DNA of 26,843 bases from a virus, in IMG/VR virus record IMGVR_UViG_3300032516_007631, positions 1 to 26,843 of that record; one strand, given 5' to 3'. Below are positions 1,693 to 13,784 of this stretch, piece after piece. The notes below the pieces were generated by a model. The model had not been told where the DNA came from and did no database searches. It saw only the letters and a program-made list of their open reading frames with translations. A program made the translations under genes and the position numbers. Within the stretch, counting starts at the first letter, position 1. Every line of letters starts with the position of its first letter.

Positions 1693-2136
1693 TCAAGGGG
1701 AAACTACCAGTTGGCCTCTGAGCTTCTGCCACAGATGCCGCTGTCTGCGCCAGTCGGACATGGCCGCGACGGGGCGAATCTGACGCTCGGAGATGGGGTC
1801 GCGGCCCGATGCGGTGCGCGGCAGGAACAGGATTTCCTCTTGGGTGTCCGGCGCCAGGTTCAGCAGGTTCATGATCTGCGTCACGCGGGCCCGCGTCACG
1901 TGGCCGAGGCGGGCCAGGTCGGCGTAGTCGCGGACTGCGCCCTTGCGGATGAGGCCGTCGAAGTGGATGGCCAGAGCCATCAGACGCGCGAGGCGCGGCA
2001 CGCGGCCGGGTTCGACCGCGGGCGGCACGGGGGCCTCGCCCTGGCGCAATCGCCTGCGCCCTTGGGCGCCGGGCTTGAAATGCACCTTGCAGGCGACCGT
2101 GATGCCGGCCCCGGTTTCACTCGCGCTCAGGTTCAT
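1693..2136 (-). CDS. HTH protein of the recombinase operon (KorB-like)
   Basis: This 147-aa protein overlaps the recombinase stop by four bases (ATGA), so it is translationally coupled. Around residues 63-106 there is a helix-turn-helix of the KorB/ParB type, with the run DYADLARLGHVTRARVTQIM. Small proteins of this kind commonly follow large serine recombinases next to DUF2924 genes. A DNA-binding accessory or regulatory role is inferred; no catalytic motif is seen. The basic N-terminal segment (FKPGAQGRRRLRQGE) is typical of this partner family as I remember it. Confidence 0.75.
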   Translation of the reverse strand: MNLSASETGAGITVACKVHFKPGAQGRRRLRQGEAPVPPAVEPGRVPRLARLMALAIHFDGLIRKGAVRDYADLARLGHVTRARVTQIMNLLNLAPDTQEEILFLPRTASGRDPISERQIRPVAAMSDWRRQRHLWQKLRGQLVVSP

Positions 2137-3689
2137 GCTTCCACCTCCTCGCGGCTCACCAATTCGGCGGCCAGGGTCTTGATGCCCGTCGGTCGGAAGG
2201 TCACCGATATCTGGCCATCCCGGCCGTCGTAGGCCACGCGTTCGACCAGGAGTTGCAGCACCCGCGCCTGCTCGCGCGGCGCGAGCGAATCCCACACGGG
2301 GTCGAACAGCGACAGGGCCGTGGCCAGGTCGCTCTCGTCGACCTGCTCGCGGTCCAGGGCCGCCATCTCCTGGCGGACCTCCATTGCCCGCTGCTCGCCC
2401 TTGCGGATGCGGTCCTGAAGGTCGGCCAGCCTGCCCCGGGCGGTCTCGTCCCGGGCGGCAGCGTCGAGCGCCAGGCGGACACTGTCGTTGAGCTGCGCGA
2501 GTTCGCGGTCCAGGCCGCGGCGTTCCGCTTCGAGCCGCCGCAGGTCTTCCGCCCGTTGGCGGCGGGCGTGCCGTAACGTCTCGGCCACCAGACCGGGGTC
2601 GCGGCCGACGGCGCGTATCTGGTCGACCACGAACCGCTCGATCTCCGCCGCCGGCACCGATTTCGTCGGGCAGGTGTCCCAGCCCCGCTTCTGGGCGTGG
2701 ACGCAGACGTAGTAGCGGTAGCGCTTGTTGCCCCTGGCCGTGAACGCGTGGGCCATGGCGCAGCCGCAAGGGGCGCACTGGAGCAGGCCCTTGAGGATGG
2801 CCCCGTGCTTGTTCCGGTCGTGCTTGCCGCGGCTGGCGCCGTTGCGGCGGAGGCGCCCGTGCACCTCGCGCCAGAGTTCCTCGCCCACGATGGCCTCGTG
2901 TTCGGCGTCGTACATCTGGCCGTGGTAATTGACCTTCCCTCGGTAGGCGACGTTCGAGAGGAGCCGGAGGAGGCTGCTCTTGTCGAAGGGCTGCCCCCCG
3001 CGTTCGCGGCCCTTGCGGGTGACCCACCGCTTGTTCGTCCAGCCACGGCGCGCCAGTTCCTGAACCGTCGGTATCAGGGCCTGGTGCTCCAGGTACAACT
3101 CAAAGATGGCCCGGACCCGCTGGGCCTCGTCCTCGTTGACCACCAGTCTGCCGCCCTCGGGGGCAAGGTCGTAGCCGAGGATCGGCATGCCGCCCGTCCA
3201 CTTGCCCTTGCGCCGGGCGGCCGACATCTTGTCGCGCGTGCGCTCGGCGATGATCTCCCGCTCGAACTGGGCGAAGGATAGCAGGACGTTCAGCACCAGC
3301 CGGCCCATTGAAGTGGCGGTGTTGAACTGCTGGGTGACGCTGACGAACGAGACGTTGTACCGGTCGAGCGTCTCGATGATCCGCGCGAAGTCGAGGAGCG
3401 ACCGGCTCAGGCGGTCCACCTTGTAGACGACGATGCAGGCGACCTTCCCGGCCTCGACGTCGGCCAGAAGGCGTTTCACCGCCGGGCGGTCCATGTCGCC
3501 GCCGCTGTAGCCGCCGTCGTCGTAGCGGTCCTTGAGGCAGACCCAGCCCTCGTTCTTCTGGCTGGCGATGTACGCCTCGGCCGATTCGCGCTGGGCGTCG
3601 AGGGAGTTGAAGTCGCGGTCCAGCCCCTCGTCGGTGGATTTACGGGTGTAGATGGCACAGCGTATCGTCCTGGTGGCCGGTTTGATCAT
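2133..3689 (-). CDS. Large serine recombinase
   Basis: This 518-aa site-specific recombinase has the three usual parts. The N-terminal resolvase domain holds the catalytic serine (Ser18 in IYTRKS) and DRLSRSLLDFARI. The recombinase domain spans about residues 180-290, and a zinc beta-ribbon is around 300-350 (CAPCG and later YVCVHA..CP cysteines). A C-terminal coiled-coil region runs from about 370 to 450. It would cut and rejoin attachment sites through a Ser-DNA intermediate, so it is the best candidate integrase for this element. The start at 3689 is fixed by the ATGA overlap with the DUF2924 stop and by homology beginning at MIKPATRTIRCAIYTRKS; an upstream in-frame extension is not homologous. 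I could not identify attachment sites. Confidence 0.93.
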   Translation of the reverse strand: MIKPATRTIRCAIYTRKSTDEGLDRDFNSLDAQRESAEAYIASQKNEGWVCLKDRYDDGGYSGGDMDRPAVKRLLADVEAGKVACIVVYKVDRLSRSLLDFARIIETLDRYNVSFVSVTQQFNTATSMGRLVLNVLLSFAQFEREIIAERTRDKMSAARRKGKWTGGMPILGYDLAPEGGRLVVNEDEAQRVRAIFELYLEHQALIPTVQELARRGWTNKRWVTRKGRERGGQPFDKSSLLRLLSNVAYRGKVNYHGQMYDAEHEAIVGEELWREVHGRLRRNGASRGKHDRNKHGAILKGLLQCAPCGCAMAHAFTARGNKRYRYYVCVHAQKRGWDTCPTKSVPAAEIERFVVDQIRAVGRDPGLVAETLRHARRQRAEDLRRLEAERRGLDRELAQLNDSVRLALDAAARDETARGRLADLQDRIRKGEQRAMEVRQEMAALDREQVDESDLATALSLFDPVWDSLAPREQARVLQLLVERVAYDGRDGQISVTFRPTGIKTLAAELVSREEVEA

Positions 3690-4180
3690 GCCTTCTTCCC
3701 TTCCTTCCCCGCCATGCCGAAGAACAGCATCCCGTTCCAGTGGGCGCCGGTGACCTGCTGGGCCACGGCACTCAGGGACCGGTAGACCTCGCCACCGCAC
3801 TCGAAGCCATCGTCCAAGACCGTCACGCGGATGGCCCGGCCCTTGTACTCACGCACCATGACCGTCCCCGGCACCGGCAGGCGGCCGTCCGTCGGCGCGG
3901 CAATCCTGCCGACCGCGAGGGGACCTGCGCCCGCCGCAGTGACCTTGGGGGCATAGATGCGCAGGTCCGCATCGTTGGCCAGTTCTTCGGCTCGCCGCCG
4001 GGCGGGGTCGGACAGGCCGCCCTCTGCGTTCGCCTGCATCCGCCAGATGATGCGTTTCCACAGGAGTGCCTTGTGGTGCGACCGGCACTCCTCGCCGAAG
4101 ACCTCGGCGTACCGTGCCCTGAGTTCCGGCACGGTCATCGCCTTGAGGGCGGCGACCTCCTTCTCGACGTTCATGCCCAT
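3686..4180 (-). CDS. DUF2924 domain protein
   Basis: This 164-aa protein matches DUF2924 (PF11149). It has an N-terminal helical part and a C-terminal signature with PGTVMVREYKGRAIRVTVL and YRSLSAVAQQVTGAHWNG. Its function is unknown, but members sit directly upstream of large serine recombinases, as here, where the ATGA overlap couples it to the recombinase. AGGAGG lies six bases before the first ATG, supporting the start at 4180; the ATG two codons later is an alternative. A two-part motif shared with the accessory cluster 17 kb away lies 45 bases upstream of this start. Confidence 0.88.
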   Translation of the reverse strand: MGMNVEKEVAALKAMTVPELRARYAEVFGEECRSHHKALLWKRIIWRMQANAEGGLSDPARRRAEELANDADLRIYAPKVTAAGAGPLAVGRIAAPTDGRLPVPGTVMVREYKGRAIRVTVLDDGFECGGEVYRSLSAVAQQVTGAHWNGMLFFGMAGKEGKKA

Positions 4181-4453: not shown

Positions 4454-4530
4454 CGGCATCCTCCGGCATACTGGCTGGGGGCTGCGGCGCTCCCATACTG
4501 TGTATTTACCGGAGCCACGCGTGATGTGAC

Positions 4531-4551
4531 GAGGCCCCACGAATGGGGCTC
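4531..4551. repeat. Hairpin in the divergent intergenic region
   Basis: GAGGCCCCA and TGGGGCTC flank a CGAA loop, giving an 8-9 bp stem with one bulge, between the divergent 4453 and 4675 genes. No T-run follows on either strand, so a terminator is unlikely. It could be an operator or lie in the leader of the recombinase operon. Function is unknown. Confidence 0.35.
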
Positions 4552-4604
4552 GATAGTGGGGTACGCCAAGCGGGTAGTAGCGGCAGAAGGGGGTGCATTT
4601 CCTC

Positions 4605-4633
4605 TTGCGTGAAGGACCGCTTTCGAGTACAGT
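4605..4633 (+). promoter_or_regulatory. Candidate sigma-70-type promoter of the 4675 module
   Basis: TTGCGT (4605-4610) and TACAGT (4628-4633) are separated by 17 bases and lie about 40 bases before the start of the 4675 gene. Each box has four or fewer mismatches to consensus, so this is a plausible but unproven promoter for the two-gene module. Confidence 0.3.
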
Positions 4634-4674
4634 TAGGCTCATGTTAGGGGGGCGGGACCGAAAGGACGCATGGC

Positions 4675-5853
4675 ATGGCAACGTACAATCTCCGTCACTT
4701 CTCACACGCTGAAGCCCTGAAGCACATTGCCCGGGAGCATCTCATTGCGCTTCTCGCGCCGCATGCGGGTTTTTTCTCAGGTCGGGGCGTGGCGATCCCT
4801 TCCGCGGCGAGCAGGCAGAGCATTGACTACGAGGGCCTGGTCAAGACTCTCATGACGCCCGACATCGACACGCCGAAGGACTTGGCCGACGCACTGTTCT
4901 TCATTAACGAGATGGCCACGACCGAAGGGATGGCGTGCCTGCTTGAAGAGGCGGAGCGCCTCAAGATCGACATCATTGGGGCGCCGGCGCCTACGCCTGC
5001 CGATGTAGCCTTGCAGATGTGGCTTAAGAATCGCGATGTGCTGGAACGGAAACACGCCGAGCAGTTCCTGACCAATCTGAGGTCGTTTGAGTCCTACCAG
5101 ACCACGCTGTCACCGGTCCCACCCTTCACGTTGCCCTCTGCCGCCACGCTCAAGGCTCTCGAGGGAGACCTGAACGGATGGTTCGAACAGAAGAATCGCG
5201 GCCGCAATTCCCGCGTGTTCGTCTTCCCACGAGGGAGCGCGGTGTTGTTTCTTGTTCGCCACGGCGACCCTTACAAGCGCGAGGGGACCATTGCCGAGGG
5301 CGGTGAATCCTCCAGCGTCTATTACTGGCCCGAGAAGTTCGACGTGCTGGTTTGTGTGCCCGCAGAGGGGGAGATTCGCGTGCATGCCGGCAGCAAAGGC
5401 GAGAGAACGCTCTGCCGCACGGTGTTTGGGCGGCACCTGTTCGGCAGCGACGACTTTTTCGCAAGCGACCGCCGGTACACCCTGGAACCCCTGAGGGAAA
5501 AGGGAGAAGCAGCCCTGGCGTGCGGCGACGTTGACGGCATGGAGTCCGTAGTCCTGACCGAGGTGCAGTTCTTCTGGGGCGGGGAGCAGAAGGAGAAGGA
5601 GGTCCGGAAGGCCGAGAACATCTTTGCGGCCTATGCGGCCCGTGAGGCCCACATGCCCACCAAGGCGCCGATCATCAAGGCGAGTTTCCGCGTCGTTTTC
5701 TCCGACTCCAAGACGGCGAGGACCGTTACCATCCGCACGCCGAACGTCGCCCAGTATACGCGCGATAGTGACAGCGGAATCATCGAGAAATGGCTGGCTC
5801 TTCGCGGATTTGTCGTGCAGCAGAAAGCACAGGCCCATGAAGATGCCGCTTAA
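4675..5853 (+). CDS. Unrecognised protein, first gene of a two-gene module
   Basis: I do not recognise a named family in this 392-aa protein. It is soluble-looking, with no signal peptide or membrane segment. Residues 1-170 are mainly helical. The central part has a beta-rich stretch with VRHGDPYKREG and YYWPEKFDVLVCVPAEGEI (about 200-245), and the C-terminal portion (about 345-385) is another beta-rich unit ending in IIEKWLALRGFVV. It is transcribed away from the recombinase operon and overlaps the start of the next gene by 11-17 bases, so the pair is probably translated together. The ATG at 4675 is used; ATGGCATGGCA offers one earlier weak option. A defence or regulatory role is possible from position, but nothing in the sequence proves it. 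Confidence 0.7.
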   Translation: MATYNLRHFSHAEALKHIAREHLIALLAPHAGFFSGRGVAIPSAASRQSIDYEGLVKTLMTPDIDTPKDLADALFFINEMATTEGMACLLEEAERLKIDIIGAPAPTPADVALQMWLKNRDVLERKHAEQFLTNLRSFESYQTTLSPVPPFTLPSAATLKALEGDLNGWFEQKNRGRNSRVFVFPRGSAVLFLVRHGDPYKREGTIAEGGESSSVYYWPEKFDVLVCVPAEGEIRVHAGSKGERTLCRTVFGRHLFGSDDFFASDRRYTLEPLREKGEAALACGDVDGMESVVLTEVQFFWGGEQKEKEVRKAENIFAAYAAREAHMPTKAPIIKASFRVVFSDSKTARTVTIRTPNVAQYTRDSDSGIIEKWLALRGFVVQQKAQAHEDAA

Positions 5854-6706
5854 GGAGTTCTGGCAGACGCTGGAGTCCCTGCCCGGCCTGGCGGCGATTG
5901 CCGCAGAGTGGCAAGCTCTGCTCGGAACGGAGTACGATGCCGTGCGGGGCTTTCTGCAGCCCACCAGCCGGGAGGCGACGGCCTACCGGTCGCCGCAACC
6001 TGGCCGATACTGCGTCCACAAGGTGGTGAAGCACGGGCCGGGCGACTACACCGGCGTTTGCCCGGAAGGATGCGGCCCCATCTCGTTGTCGAAGTCCGAT
6101 GTGATTGTCTATGAACTGGACACCGCCGCTCTAGGCCGAGCAGTCGCTCAGGCTCTGAGCATCGAGCATACACAGTCGCCTGTGGCAAGCCTGCCTAAGA
6201 CCGCGCGAATTGGCACCTATGCACCCTATGCGGGGTTCCGGTTCCCTGTCTACTTGACCATCCGCACGGAGCCGGACGACTTCGGACAAGCGGTACATGG
6301 TCTCATGGCAAGTACTGACGGCCCCTTCATTCTTCTGGCTCCAACGCGAGAACTGTGCATCCCTGCCTCCGAGGAACTGTTGAAGCGCCAGAAGGCTTCT
6401 TTGCTGCCGCTCTCTGAGATTCTGGCGCTGGACCGACGGGGGAGGTTCGTTCTCGCCGACGGGCTGACCATCGACACCATCCTGGCCGACTTCCGCTCGG
6501 CCGTCTTGCCCCCTGTGAATGACCAGTCCGGGATGGTCTTCTTCCCCACGCCGCCGGACGCTCGGTGGGAGGACGTCACCATCCGCTTCCGCGACGACCA
6601 TACGGTGTCTGTCAACGTTAGCGGCGTGTCGCAGGTCTGCCACTACGCGAAGATGGGCATGGCCGCCGGCGCAACAGCAATCCCACGAAGCAGTGGGAAC
6701 TGCTGA
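5837..6706 (+). CDS. Unrecognised protein, second gene of the module, apparently frameshifted
   Basis: This frame gives 289 aa starting MKMPLKEFWQTLESLPGLAA; an ATG two codons later (5843) is equally possible. The fold is mixed alpha/beta and no catalytic motif is recognised. Two features point to a frameshift near 6660. The last dozen residues (MAAGATAIPRSSGNC) look out of frame, and the -1 frame immediately continues as a plausible winged-helix domain to a TAG at 6888. Read without the shift the protein would be about 350 aa with a C-terminal DNA-binding domain. The defect could be a true one-base deletion, a sequencing error or programmed frameshifting. The overlap with the preceding gene indicates shared function. 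Confidence 0.6.
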   Translation: MKMPLKEFWQTLESLPGLAAIAAEWQALLGTEYDAVRGFLQPTSREATAYRSPQPGRYCVHKVVKHGPGDYTGVCPEGCGPISLSKSDVIVYELDTAALGRAVAQALSIEHTQSPVASLPKTARIGTYAPYAGFRFPVYLTIRTEPDDFGQAVHGLMASTDGPFILLAPTRELCIPASEELLKRQKASLLPLSEILALDRRGRFVLADGLTIDTILADFRSAVLPPVNDQSGMVFFPTPPDARWEDVTIRFRDDHTVSVNVSGVSQVCHYAKMGMAAGATAIPRSSGNC

Positions 6707-10392: not shown

Positions 10393-11370
10393 ATGGCTGC
10401 CAAGACACCGGAACCGTTCCCGACGCTCAAGGACCTGCCGCTGGACGCCATTCGCCTCGACGGCGGCACGCAGCCGCGGGCCGCCATCGACCCTGAGACG
10501 GTGCGCGAGTACGCCGAGCGGATGTGCGCGGGCGACCGCTTCCCACCGGTGCAGGTGTACTCCGACGGCACCGACCACTGGCTCTCCGATGGTTTCCACC
10601 GTGTCAAGGCGGCCATCGAAGCCGGGCAGACGACCATCCAGGCCGAGGTGTGGGAAGGCACGCGCGACGGCGCATTCTGGATGTCGCTCGGGGCCAACAA
10701 GACACATGGGTTGCCGCGGTCCAACGCCGATAAGGAGCGGGCTGTCAAGGCCGCACTCCGGACCAGGCCAGGCAAGAGCAACCGCGAGATCGCCGAGCAC
10801 GTCGGCGTCGTCGAGGGGACCGTCCGTAAGTACCGGGATGCACTGGAGGCGACTGCGCAACTTGCGCAGTCGCCCATGCGTGCTGGTCGTGACGGCCGGA
10901 CGATCAACACCGCCAACATCGGCAAGACGGCCGGCGCGGGGGCCGAGTCGCCGGCCGTGCCCAACCCCGACGACATCCCGCTGGATCTTCCGGGTGCGCC
11001 AGCGGACACCATGCCCGCAAGCCAGGGCCCGCCGACCGCCGAGGTCGTCACGGACCAGGTCGGCCATGCCGTCGAGGGCAAGGTCGCCGATGCCTTCCGT
11101 CGGCGGCACGAGATGCAGGCGCTCGTGCTGGCCGTCATGAAGGTCAGGTCGACCGTCCTCAAGGCCGTCGAGGCGAAAGACTCGCTCTACACCGACATCC
11201 TGCCCACGCAGTTCCAGGCCGACTGCGGCAACGCCATCAGGCAACTGAAGGCCGCGATGCCGCACGCTGCGTGTCCCTACTGCCGCGCCGCCGGGTGCAA
11301 GGCCTGCCACGGCCGTGGCTGGATCGGCAAACTCGCCTGGGACGCGGCACCGCGGGAACTCAAATCGTGA
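10393..11370 (+). CDS. ParB-like domain, HTH and zinc-finger protein
   Basis: This 325-aa protein has three parts. A ParB/Srx-type domain covers about residues 15-105 and contains DGFHR at 66-70, the conserved ParB loop. An HTH lies at about 126-150 (SNREIAEHVGVVEGTVRKYR). A C-terminal zinc finger, CPYCRAAGCKACHGRGW, has Cys294, Cys297, Cys302 and Cys305 in a DnaJ-like spacing. AAGGAGG ten bases before the ATG fixes the start. It overlaps the helicase start (GTGA). A role in DNA binding at the replication module is likely; whether it binds CTP or acts in segregation is not shown. A perfect 27-bp palindrome lies inside the gene just after the HTH. Confidence 0.8.
   Translation: MAAKTPEPFPTLKDLPLDAIRLDGGTQPRAAIDPETVREYAERMCAGDRFPPVQVYSDGTDHWLSDGFHRVKAAIEAGQTTIQAEVWEGTRDGAFWMSLGANKTHGLPRSNADKERAVKAALRTRPGKSNREIAEHVGVVEGTVRKYRDALEATAQLAQSPMRAGRDGRTINTANIGKTAGAGAESPAVPNPDDIPLDLPGAPADTMPASQGPPTAEVVTDQVGHAVEGKVADAFRRRHEMQALVLAVMKVRSTVLKAVEAKDSLYTDILPTQFQADCGNAIRQLKAAMPHAACPYCRAAGCKACHGRGWIGKLAWDAAPRELKS
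10848..10874. repeat. Perfect 27-bp palindrome inside the ParB-like gene
   Basis: GGCGACTGCGCAA (10848-10860) and TTGCGCAGTCGCC (10862-10874) are exact reverse complements around a single C. The palindrome lies within coding sequence just downstream of the HTH codons. ParB proteins bind short palindromes and some phage proteins bind sites inside their own genes, so it may be a binding site; an mRNA hairpin is the alternative. Confidence 0.55.
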
Positions 11371-13784
11371 AACTCCGTTCCTATCAAGAGGCCGCCGTGG
11401 ACGGCATCTTCGAGGCGTGGCGCTCGGCGCGGTCGACGTTGCTCGTCCAGCCGACAGGCACGGGCAAGACGGTGACGTTCGCTCACGTCATCAACCGGAT
11501 GCCCATGGGCCGGGCGCTCGTCCTCGCACACCGCGAGGAGCTCATCTTCCAGGCGGCCGACAAGATCGCCCGCGTCACCGGCGCCAAGCCCGACACCGAG
11601 ATGGCCGAAATGCGGGCCGACCACGGGATGTTCGGCAAGGCCCGCGTCGTCGTCTCGTCCATCCAGACCCAGTGCGCCGGACGCAACGGCGACACCCGGA
11701 TGAAGCGGTTCGACCCGCAGGAGTTCGGCCTGCTCGTGGTCGATGAAGCGCATCATGCGACTGCGCCCACGTACCGCCGCGTGCTTGAGCACTACGGCCA
11801 GAACCAGGACCTCAAGATCCTCGGCGTCACGGCCACGCCCGATCGCCACGACGAAGAGGCTCTCGGCCAGGTCTTCGACTCTGTGGCGTTCGACTACGAA
11901 CTCCTCGACGCTATCCGGGACGGCTGGCTCGTGCCCATCCACCAGCGGAGCGTTGTGGTGGACGGCCTCGATTACTCCGGCGTGCGGACCACGGCGGGGG
12001 ACCTTAACGGGGCCGACCTGGCGCGGGTGATGGAGTACGAGGAGACCCTGCACGGCATCGCCCACCCGACCGTCGAACTGGCCGCCGGCCGCAAGGCCCT
12101 CGTCTTCGCCGCGTCGGTGGCCCATGCGGAGCGCCTGTGCGAAATCTTCAACCGCCACAGCACCGGGTGCGCCCGATTCGTGACCGGCACCACCCCCAAG
12201 GACGAACGCCGCGGGATGCTGGCCGACTATGCCGCCGGCAAGTTCCAGATGCTCGTCAACGTTGGTGTGGCCACCGAGGGATTCGACGAGCCGGGCATCC
12301 AGGTGGTCGTCATGGCCCGGCCCACGAAGAGCCGGGCTCTGTACGCGCAGATGGCCGGGCGGGGCACACGGGCGCTGCCGGGCCTGGTGGACGCCCACGA
12401 GGCCGCTGACGCTCGTCGCGCCGCGATTGCTGCCAGCGCCAAGCCCGCCTGTATCGCCGAGGGGCAACGGGTTCTTACCGACAGAGGGCTTGTTCCTATA
12501 GAGAACGTTACGACAGAGATGCTGGTTTGGGATGGCATAGCCTTTGTGTCTCACGACGGAGCCACATGCCAGGGAGAACGGGAGGTTATCCACTATGCAG
12601 GACTTATTGCCACCGCCGACCATCGCGTCTGGACGGAAGAGGGCTGGAAGACCTTTGGGCAGTGTGCCGCCGAACAAGTTGCCATCGGTGTTGCCGGGGC
12701 TGGTCGGACGACGATTCGGGAGGTTGACGGTCGTTTCAGGAGAGGTAGTTCGGGTGAAGGGAAGGCCGCGCCTGTTGGTGGAATGCTCAATATGTGGTCA
12801 GCAGTCGCTGAAAGATTACGGCAGTCTGATGCAGAAAAAGGCGGGGTGTCGCCGGTGCGGGCAGCCGCAGCACGCGCCGCTTTGGCTTGTCAAACGATGC
12901 ATTCTGGCCAAGTCCAGATGCACCAATCCGCGCGACAACCGCTTTCCGGACTATGGCGGACGAGGGATCGAGTTTCGGTTTGCCAAGCCCTTGGTGATGG
13001 CTATATGGATACAAGCGAATTTAGGGCTACATCCAGAACTGACCATAGACCGCATCAACAACGACGGCCACTACGAACCGGGAAACCTGCGGTGGGCCAG
13101 TCGTTCGGTCCAACAGTTGAATCAACGTCGACACTATCTCGCGTCTGGGACATCCTCAACGCTGGCCCCCACCACCGCTTCACGGTAGAGGGGTTGTTAG
13201 TCTCAAATTGCCACATCATCGATTTCGTGGGCAATTCCGGCCGCCACAAGCTCATCACCACCGCCGACATCCTCGGAGGCAACTACTCCGACGAGGTGGT
13301 CGATCGCGCCCGGAAAGCAGCCGAGATAGCCGACGGCGCCGCCGTGGACATGGCGGAGCTCCTCGCGGACGCCGAGAAGGATCTCGCCGAAGAGCGTGAG
13401 CGGGCCCGCCGGGCGGCCCTGCGGGTGAAGGCGCGGTACACGAGCCAGGTGGTCGACCCGTTCGACGTCCTGCACATCGAGCCGTGGCGGGAGCGCGGAT
13501 GGGATACGGGGCGCCAGCCCAGCGAGAAGATGCTCGCGCTCCTGGACCGCAACGGCATCGACACCAAGGGCCTCACCTTCACGCAGGCCAAGCAACTCGT
13601 CGGCGAGATCATCCATCGTTACGAGGAGAAGCAGTGCAGCTTCAAGCAGGCCCGGCTCCTCAGTCGGTATGGCTACCCCACGGACGTCCCGTTCGCCGAG
13701 GCGAGCCGCCTCATTGACGCGCTGGCAAAGAACAACTGGCAGCGGCCCGTGGACACTCCGGCCGCCCCGGTGGAGGTGTACTGA
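11367..13784 (+). CDS. DEAH-box superfamily 2 helicase precursor with an intein
   Basis: The 805-aa precursor contains a 552-aa helicase interrupted by a 253-aa intein. Motifs in order are PTGTGKT (Walker A, residues 29-35), DEAH (126-129), TATP (155-158), VNVGVATEGFDEP (motif V, about 297-309) and QMAGRGTR (motif VI, 328-335). The intein spans residues 362-614, after SAKPA, and the helicase resumes at Cys615 with CHIIDFVGNSGRHKL. After splicing it would unwind DNA or remodel nucleoprotein in phage replication. The GTG start at 11367 overlaps the ParB-like gene stop, and homology begins at MKLRSYQEAAV. The stop overlaps the primase start (TGATG). The frame is open throughout even where another frame encodes the endonuclease. 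Confidence 0.9.
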   Translation: MKLRSYQEAAVDGIFEAWRSARSTLLVQPTGTGKTVTFAHVINRMPMGRALVLAHREELIFQAADKIARVTGAKPDTEMAEMRADHGMFGKARVVVSSIQTQCAGRNGDTRMKRFDPQEFGLLVVDEAHHATAPTYRRVLEHYGQNQDLKILGVTATPDRHDEEALGQVFDSVAFDYELLDAIRDGWLVPIHQRSVVVDGLDYSGVRTTAGDLNGADLARVMEYEETLHGIAHPTVELAAGRKALVFAASVAHAERLCEIFNRHSTGCARFVTGTTPKDERRGMLADYAAGKFQMLVNVGVATEGFDEPGIQVVVMARPTKSRALYAQMAGRGTRALPGLVDAHEAADARRAAIAASAKPACIAEGQRVLTDRGLVPIENVTTEMLVWDGIAFVSHDGATCQGEREVIHYAGLIATADHRVWTEEGWKTFGQCAAEQVAIGVAGAGRTTIREVDGRFRRGSSGEGKAAPVGGMLNMWSAVAERLRQSDAEKGGVSPVRAAAARAALACQTMHSGQVQMHQSARQPLSGLWRTRDRVSVCQALGDGYMDTSEFRATSRTDHRPHQQRRPLRTGKPAVGQSFGPTVESTSTLSRVWDILNAGPHHRFTVEGLLVSNCHIIDFVGNSGRHKLITTADILGGNYSDEVVDRARKAAEIADGAAVDMAELLADAEKDLAEERERARRAALRVKARYTSQVVDPFDVLHIEPWRERGWDTGRQPSEKMLALLDRNGIDTKGLTFTQAKQLVGEIIHRYEEKQCSFKQARLLSRYGYPTDVPFAEASRLIDALAKNNWQRPVDTPAAPVEVY
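12580..12585 (+). promoter_or_regulatory. Ribosome-binding site of the nested endonuclease
   Basis: GGGAGG lies nine bases before the ATG at 12595, inside the Hint-N coding region. It provides an independent translation start for the endonuclease frame and is the main reason for choosing this start rather than the in-frame TTG at 12544. Confidence 0.55.
12595..13188 (+). CDS. HNH homing endonuclease nested out of frame in the intein
   Basis: This 197-aa protein is encoded wholly within the intein but in the +1 frame relative to the helicase. It matches free-standing phage HNH endonucleases along its length. The N-terminal signature is LVGRRFGRLTVV (residues 36-47). A zinc ribbon has CSIC (64-67) and CRRC (85-88). 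CTNPRDNRFPDYGGRGIEF is at 109-127, and the HNH core LTIDRINNDGHYEPGNLRWA is at 149-168. The last segment is SVQQLNQRR. The ATG at 12595 has GGGAGG nine bases upstream; the first 35 residues overlap Hint-N codons and may be a linker. It would cut intein-less helicase alleles to drive homing. The alternative is that two compensating frameshifts moved a once-fused endonuclease out of frame. Confidence 0.85.
   Translation: MQDLLPPPTIASGRKRAGRPLGSVPPNKLPSVLPGLVGRRFGRLTVVSGEVVRVKGRPRLLVECSICGQQSLKDYGSLMQKKAGCRRCGQPQHAPLWLVKRCILAKSRCTNPRDNRFPDYGGRGIEFRFAKPLVMAIWIQANLGLHPELTIDRINNDGHYEPGNLRWASRSVQQLNQRRHYLASGTSSTLAPTTASR

Follow-up and report, generated by a model that had tools for sequence, protein, structure and literature searches.

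The helicase locus and its insert

The virus record IMGVR_UViG_3300032516_007631 was analyzed along its whole length of 26,843 nucleotides (26.8 kb; hereafter the window, to which all positions refer unless another locus is named). The element under study is a putative intein in a phage SF2 DNA helicase gene, within which an HNH endonuclease gene is read in another frame of the same strand. The features of the locus are listed in Table 1. Across positions 12595–13185, neither the HNH frame nor the helicase frame contains a stop codon, while the third frame contains 10. The G+C content of the intein (57%) is lower than that of the helicase exteins (68%). An initial annotation of this DNA had placed Cys1 at 12450, Asn253 ending at 13208 and followed by Cys, and the HNH open reading frame (ORF) at 12595–13188, and these positions held on reanalysis. 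The 552-amino acid (aa) helicase that it had expected after splicing likewise agrees with what removal of the insert would leave (805 − 253 = 552).

Table 1. Features of the helicase locus in the window
Feature	Position	Strand	Evidence or comment
Helicase gene	11367–13784	+	No stop from end to end; precursor of 805 aa
N-extein of phage SF2 DNA helicase (ResIII/Helicase_C; PHROG 16)	11367–12449	+	Pfam ResIII 2.2e-28, Helicase_C 1.5e-14; PHROG 16 DNA helicase 1.3e-79
Putative intein, 253 aa in the helicase frame, between KPA and Cys (helicase residues 362–614)	12450–13208	+	Hint residues invariant in relatives; empty site in relative L240
Hint N-terminal part (blocks A and B)	12450–12740	+	AlphaFold pLDDT 94–98 for residues 1–90; whole Hint Z 17.4 to Mtu RecA intein
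Shine-Dalgarno sequence GGGAGG, lying in Arg-Glu-Val of the intein frame	12580–12585	+	Sequence; enrichment of Shine-Dalgarno plus start in relatives
HNH endonuclease gene, +1 frame, ATG 12595 to TAG 13186–13188, 197 aa, entirely within the intein	12595–13188	+	PHROG 374/3377 matches; AlphaFold mean pLDDT 89; BFVD
Intein middle in the helicase frame: stop-free, predicted unstructured linker (the HNH gene in the wrong frame)	12747–13130	+	pLDDT <50 for most of residues 102–211; aa identity 0.44 in host frame vs 0.68 in HNH frame (76 pairs)
Four-cysteine zinc-knuckle-like motif of HNH protein (C64, C67, C85, C88)	12784–12858	+	Invariant in 56–58 relatives
HNH core DRINNDGHYEPGN (D152, R153, Y160, N164 invariant)	13048–13086	+	Alignment of relatives; model residues 95–180 vs PacI, Z 5.1
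Hint C-terminal part (blocks F and G; VWDILNAGPHHRFTVEGLLVSN)	13131–13208	+	pLDDT 96–98 for residues 231–253; motif aligned in relatives
C-extein of helicase, first residue the +1 Cys	13209–13784	+	Sequence; empty-site junction

A predicted Hint domain in the helicase frame

The helicase-frame translation of the insert bears the signature of an intein: Cys1, block B T55-x-x-H58, the block F/G stretch VWDILNAGPHHRFTVEGLLVSN, Asn253 and a +1 Cys. Cys1, T10, T55xxH58, D234, G239 and N253 are all invariant among 59–62 aligned relatives, and Cys is the first residue in 123 of 126 representative inteins. The alignments used for structure prediction consisted of the window and fetched-locus sequences, with phage-record rows left out. 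In the AlphaFold model of the Hint domain (alignment of 59 relatives), the predicted local distance difference test score (pLDDT) is 94–98 for residues 1–90 and 96–98 for residues 231–253, and mostly below 50 for residues 102–211; the helicase frame is thereby modeled as two good Hint halves linked by a disordered stretch. The top structural match of the model is the splicing domain of the Mtu RecA intein (Z 17.4, 123 residues aligned, root-mean-square deviation 1.8), and nearly all of the PDB matches listed are inteins or other Hint domains. A Pfam search of the window helicase left the intein part unrecognized. Because the catalytic residues are conserved, the fold is predicted and an exact empty site exists (see below), we infer that the insert is a class-1-like intein capable of splicing.

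An HNH endonuclease gene in the second frame

The endonuclease that the initial annotation had seen in the +1 frame inside the intein was confirmed by profile searches, in which the HNH ORF matched PHROG 374 (HNH endonuclease, E 3.9e-25) and PHROG 3377 (E 4.7e-19); all 56 aligned HNH relatives matched PHROG 374, 3377 and 2081. D152-R153...Y160...N164 and the four cysteines C64, C67, C85 and C88 are invariant among these relatives. AlphaFold predicts a folded protein (mean pLDDT 89), and its matches in BFVD include models of phage HNH proteins at an E of about 1e-11. No credible match was obtained when PDB sequences were searched with the HNH profile. In plasmids, HNH matches were partial, none spanning 80% of the query, and the intein DNA had no match. 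The product is an HNH-family protein, folded by prediction, that would be expected to cut DNA.

The two-frame layout in a family of phage inteins

HNH searches covered viral contigs and one genome per prokaryote species, and together with a separate Hint-first scan they yielded more than 300 loci; because the HNH-selected counts may hold the same contig twice, 126 inteins less than 80% identical were taken as representatives. The initial annotation had held that relatives with an endonuclease in frame with Hint would speak against a two-frame element. Among the HNH-selected loci, the HNH within Hint inteins lies at +1 in 174 cases and at +2 in five, and in no case is it joined to the two Hint halves in one frame; roughly 76 further HNHs are free-standing or unclear. 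A Hint-first sample of 80, drawn with no HNH selection, comprised 71 inteins with the HNH at +1, seven mini-inteins (122–150 aa), one truncated contig and one frameshifted contig (L272, identical to L032). The host genes encode SF2 helicases and phage DNA polymerase I, with several insertion sites. Judging from these sequences, the +1 layout is the rule in a phage intein family and no single odd copy.

These counts bear on whether the window simply holds an intein of the usual kind, its endonuclease thrown out of frame by a pair of compensating indels or by sequencing errors. The frameshifted contig L032/L272 points that way, as a frameshift within its HNH part does bring the greater part of the HNH into the host frame; however, the C-terminal Hint motif is lost there, and this contig is a sequencing error or a dead copy. 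The same +1 layout recurs in more than 100 distinct, diverged inteins from independent assemblies, with no intact in-frame fusion, the Shine-Dalgarno (SD) sequence with its start codon is conserved, and wobble positions show the selection described below. Compensating indels or sequencing error are thus ruled out by the relatives, and we give this explanation virtually no probability.

In a phylogenetic tree, four of the five +2 HNHs form a branch of their own (Shimodaira–Hasegawa-like approximate likelihood ratio test, SH-aLRT, 96), and a single clade for all +1 HNHs received a p value of 0.039 in the approximately unbiased test (p-AU), with a quick tree whose forks near the base are weak. 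More than one origin of the layout, in +1 and +2 versions, is likely, although not firmly established.

Some variants of the layout were also seen. The HNH stop lies exactly 8 nt before the intein end, within block G, in 57 of 126 inteins, and by our coordinates 31 nt beyond the intein end, in the C-extein, in 14 of 126. A single DNA polymerase gene (L037) carries two inteins (4482–5234 and 5590–6363), with one HNH at +1 and the other at +2, and polymerase genes of two other loci (L044, 633–2924; L215, 3547–6528) have two inteins or two nested HNH matches per ORF. In L048 (1856) and L058 (2849), the two-frame intein is preceded by an extra Hint-like start (MAPTGAGK/CLGKGTPVL) within the P-loop of the helicase.

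The two-frame intein in known phages

Several named phages possess the same element. In Streptococcus Javan255/113 and Gardnerella vB_Gva_AB1 it resides in polymerase coding sequences (CDSs), and in Caulobacter GB2A, Caulobacter RW and Shewanella SFCi1 it is present and unannotated. In APSE-1 (AF157835), P46, an annotated CDS nested in P45, falls within the HNH that the P45 intein has at +1; downstream of this polymerase gene (L228, 4209–4413), Rfam recognizes the C4 antisense RNA, its a1/b1 target and isrK. Salmonella Jersey-type phages have a polymerase intein with the HNH at +2, the DNA of which occurs in 163 phage records. Both frames are open in Ent1, PIZ and Pubbukkers, with most changes at HNH third positions, and the record of vB_SenS-Ent1 gp37 annotates an intein "encoding splicing domains". 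APSE-1 P45/P46 and the Jersey-type polymerase inteins are thus database records of the same kind of intein as that of the window; in the records viewed the HNH is unnamed or missed, and the Jersey type differs by its +2 frame. The mini-inteins at the polymerase site, e.g., that of Ruminococcus phage NatCom_23091, belong to the same Hint family and share the insertion site KVAELA/CGYGG, but differ in that no HNH was detected in their approximately 122–150 aa.

Selection on both frames and choice of frame

None of the 126 representative inteins has a stop in the host frame (helicase or polymerase) anywhere along the HNH gene. Synonymous-codon shuffling of each HNH gene introduced a mean of 9.2 host-frame stops and left the host frame open in 0.9% of trials (mean probability of an open frame, 0.009); the third frame, with 12 stops per gene across the 126 inteins, is closed in every one. 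A frame open by chance is excluded because the relatives all keep the host frame open.

The host frame lies one base behind the HNH frame, so that a host stop can arise only where an HNH codon ends in T and the next begins with AA, AG or GA. At wobble positions preceding these dinucleotides, T was found in 0 of 7343 cases, compared with 23.6% elsewhere. Since a change from NNT to NNC is always silent for the HNH, the +1 layout can be kept open free of cost. Unavoidable stops number zero in 121 genes for the frame in use, whereas the other frame has at least one in 98 of these 121 genes. Avoidability of stops may be the cause of the +1 preference, which fits the bias seen.

In the HNH frame, 76 pairs of relatives share 68% aa identity and differ at 0.253, 0.218 and 0.485 of first, second and third codon positions. 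Identity of the same DNA is 44% when it is read in the intein frame, and the first 40 intein codons show a normal pattern in the intein frame (0.247, 0.144 and 0.555). From the constraint on the HNH frame and the weaker identity in the intein frame, it follows that the middle of the intein codes for the HNH, and that the intein frame is kept open there only as a linker.

A putative ribosome-binding site within the Hint coding sequence

The HNH start in the window has the form GGGAGG-N9-ATG, with the SD sequence nine bases 5' of the ATG; both elements lie in Hint-region codons just 5' of block B. A +1-frame start codon is found at the Hint Tyr49 column in 75 of 118 aligned inteins, and 55 of these 75 have an SD sequence. 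An SD sequence of at least 4 bases followed by ATG or GTG in the HNH frame is present within intein codons 35–66 in 82 of 117 inteins; synonymous recoding at the codon usage of the exteins would leave 19.5, and the third frame has 5 (of 117). These figures support the initial annotation in its view that the endonuclease would need a start of its own. An HNH-frame stop lies at most five codons upstream of the SD-preceded start in 42 of 85 relatives and at most 48 codons upstream in 81 of 85.

The HNH could also be made as a fusion, through programmed ribosomal frameshifting out of the helicase frame; the two frames share one strand, and in the window the HNH frame stays open for a stretch of codons 5' of the ATG. 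However, the upstream stops leave little or no room for such an event in the relatives, and the spacing of the SD sequence is conserved among them, so that we consider frameshifting quite improbable. The enrichment of SD and start codons and the nearby upstream stops therefore favor internal initiation over frameshifting, and it is from this enrichment together with purifying selection on the HNH frame that we infer internal initiation of HNH translation.

Empty site and signs of mobility and decay

An exact empty site exists in L240, whose intein-less helicase is 89% identical in protein sequence over residues 3–552 and whose junction SAKPAC-EIVDFVGN corresponds to the window exteins joined. 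Inteins of several pairs are far more alike than their exteins: HNH 0.64 and Hint 0.78 versus exteins 0.36 (L157/L164), 0.59 and 0.68 versus 0.35 (L178/L193), and 0.57 and 0.62 versus 0.30 (L169/L181), where some pairs with high HNH and Hint identity sit at different insertion sites, so that their extein values relate to unlike flanks. Remnants of the HNH are left in short inteins of L253, L254, L316 and Javan422, and in L118 (3929–4810) a stop splits the HNH gene while the polymerase frame is still open. By their sequences, these inteins look like cases of endonuclease decay with Hint retained. Homing is suggested by the presence or absence of the intein at a site and by inteins that are more alike than their host genes.

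Related HNHs are free-standing in phages, and the HNH might accordingly be a passenger with another role, such as excluding competing phages or regulation, while the intein spreads otherwise. This is unlikely in our view, as the HNH occupies the usual place of a homing endonuclease between Hint blocks B and F. Presence and absence at the exact site, the pairs with inteins more similar than exteins, and the remnants and mini-inteins, as in a homing cycle, likewise argue for a homing function.

Comparison with described systems

In canonical large inteins, such as PI-SceI and PI-PfuI, the endonuclease is nested in frame and released through splicing. The window element resembles them in its Hint fold and in having the endonuclease between blocks B and F, but they fuse the endonuclease in frame, whereas the window HNH has its own frame and putative start and lies outside the spliced polypeptide. 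Endonuclease domains of inteins are reported to be all found at one conserved site (PMC6801210).

The closest prior art is the "hidden HNH" of the ShiLan domain and of Pacc40 gp60, out-of-frame HNH insertions in phage methylases for which the authors found no Hint, intron or ribosome-binding site (Arsenault, Gosselin, Gogarten 2025, PMC11855218). As in the window, a phage gene carries an insertion that is stop-free in the host frame and encodes an HNH in another frame, and the Pacc40 HNH is of a related kind (84% DNA identity with the window along 56 bp). However, the ShiLan and Pacc40 insertions remain in the host protein, whereas the window family has Hint and a conserved SD sequence, and the Pacc40 HNH uses the +2 frame, the window HNH the +1 frame. 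Hint profiles gave no match at the Pacc40 HNH insertion. A Hint N match from residue 932 of Pacc40 gp60 (L242; CLARGSLVLTKGGYKPI) belongs to a second, separate insertion.

Group I introns with a homing endonuclease ORF are likewise self-removing elements with an independently translated HNH ORF, but they are removed as RNA, whereas the window element would be removed by Hint at the protein level and must stay open in the host frame. Given the out-of-frame HNH of ShiLan and Pacc40, the window element could be thought a non-splicing insertion of that type, or else a group I intron. We regard either as very improbable, since the Hint catalytic residues and the predicted fold are present and the reading frame is open throughout; an Rfam scan of the window at the gathering threshold found no group I or II intron match.

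Neighboring genes of the window

At the edge of the phage record, on the minus strand (1–1665), lies an AbiEii/AbiEi abortive-infection pair, consisting of an AbiEii nucleotidyltransferase toxin (1–1035; PADLOC E 1.7e-100) and an AbiEi antitoxin (1039–1665; E 1.5e-58). It adjoins an ORF on the minus strand (2133–3800) resembling a large serine recombinase (MIKPATRTIRCAIYTRKSTDEG...), which suggests a temperate phage or an integrated element.

Discussion

A two-frame mobile intein best explains the window locus, with a probability that we put at roughly 0.86. Ribosomes would read the helicase precursor straight through, and the Hint halves, bridged by the unstructured linker, would fold and excise themselves, leaving an intact 552-aa helicase. 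Separate initiation on the same mRNA at GGGAGG-N9-ATG would yield the free HNH endonuclease from the +1 frame. This enzyme would be expected to cut helicase genes that lack the intein, either at the insertion site or close to it, and repair of the cut copy would bring in the whole intein. The overlap would bind the endonuclease to its host gene, in that a frameshift in the HNH would destroy the host protein; the HNH should therefore decay through substitutions or through deletions that preserve the frame, a course suggested by the observed remnants and mini-inteins.

Several observations weigh against this interpretation. The penultimate intein residue in the window is Ser instead of His. The usual first His of the HNH is absent in the family and the invariant Arg153 is in its place; among solved structures (VIA), the best match of the HNH model is the HNH enzyme PacI, a weak one (Z 5.1 over 72 residues), and a Foldseek search of the model against the PDB found nothing significant. 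The HNH stop could not be placed inside the intein in 22 of 126 representatives, some with an uncertain C-terminal boundary. About 30% of the relatives have no clear SD sequence with ATG or GTG in the scanned stretch, and in these the HNH may start elsewhere or initiation may differ.

The initial annotation named no described example of such an element. We found no paper on an out-of-frame endonuclease in a Hint intein in a literature search that did not cover 10.1101/2025.01.02.630785 or "Non-canonical inteins" (Gorbalenya 1998); of out-of-frame HNH insertions in general, a Hint-less and non-splicing one was described in 2025 (PMC11855218). That article cites a 2025 preprint from the same group ("non-canonical architecture", actinobacteriophage inteins) and Gorbalenya 1998 for overlapping reading frames. 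Beyond the initial annotation, the layout is a rule of the family, the Hint coding sequence itself contains an SD sequence and ATG, and stops are always avoidable in the frame in use. We probably deal with a previously unrecognized and widespread intein architecture, in which the gene of a homing endonuclease overlaps that of the splicing domain in another frame, one where stops are always avoidable, and is translated from an internal ribosome-binding site; one phage intein family, that of SF2 helicases and DNA polymerase I, would have mainly this form, probably with more than one origin (+1 and +2). Pfam sees almost nothing of either half, Hint or HNH, which is part of the reason why two-frame inteins have been overlooked.

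Large inteins are described as one polypeptide that has both splicing and homing activities and from which splicing frees the endonuclease, whereas here the two would be separate translation products of one DNA stretch. Many phage inteins that seem to lack an endonuclease and have a long spacer may hide an endonuclease gene. The layout would be a natural counterpart of engineered sequence entanglement (PMC12455656), and the cultured Caulobacter phages RW and GB2A, which carry it, make it open to direct testing. By locking the endonuclease to a replication gene, such that an indel breaks the host protein, the overlap should slow the decay of the homing gene.

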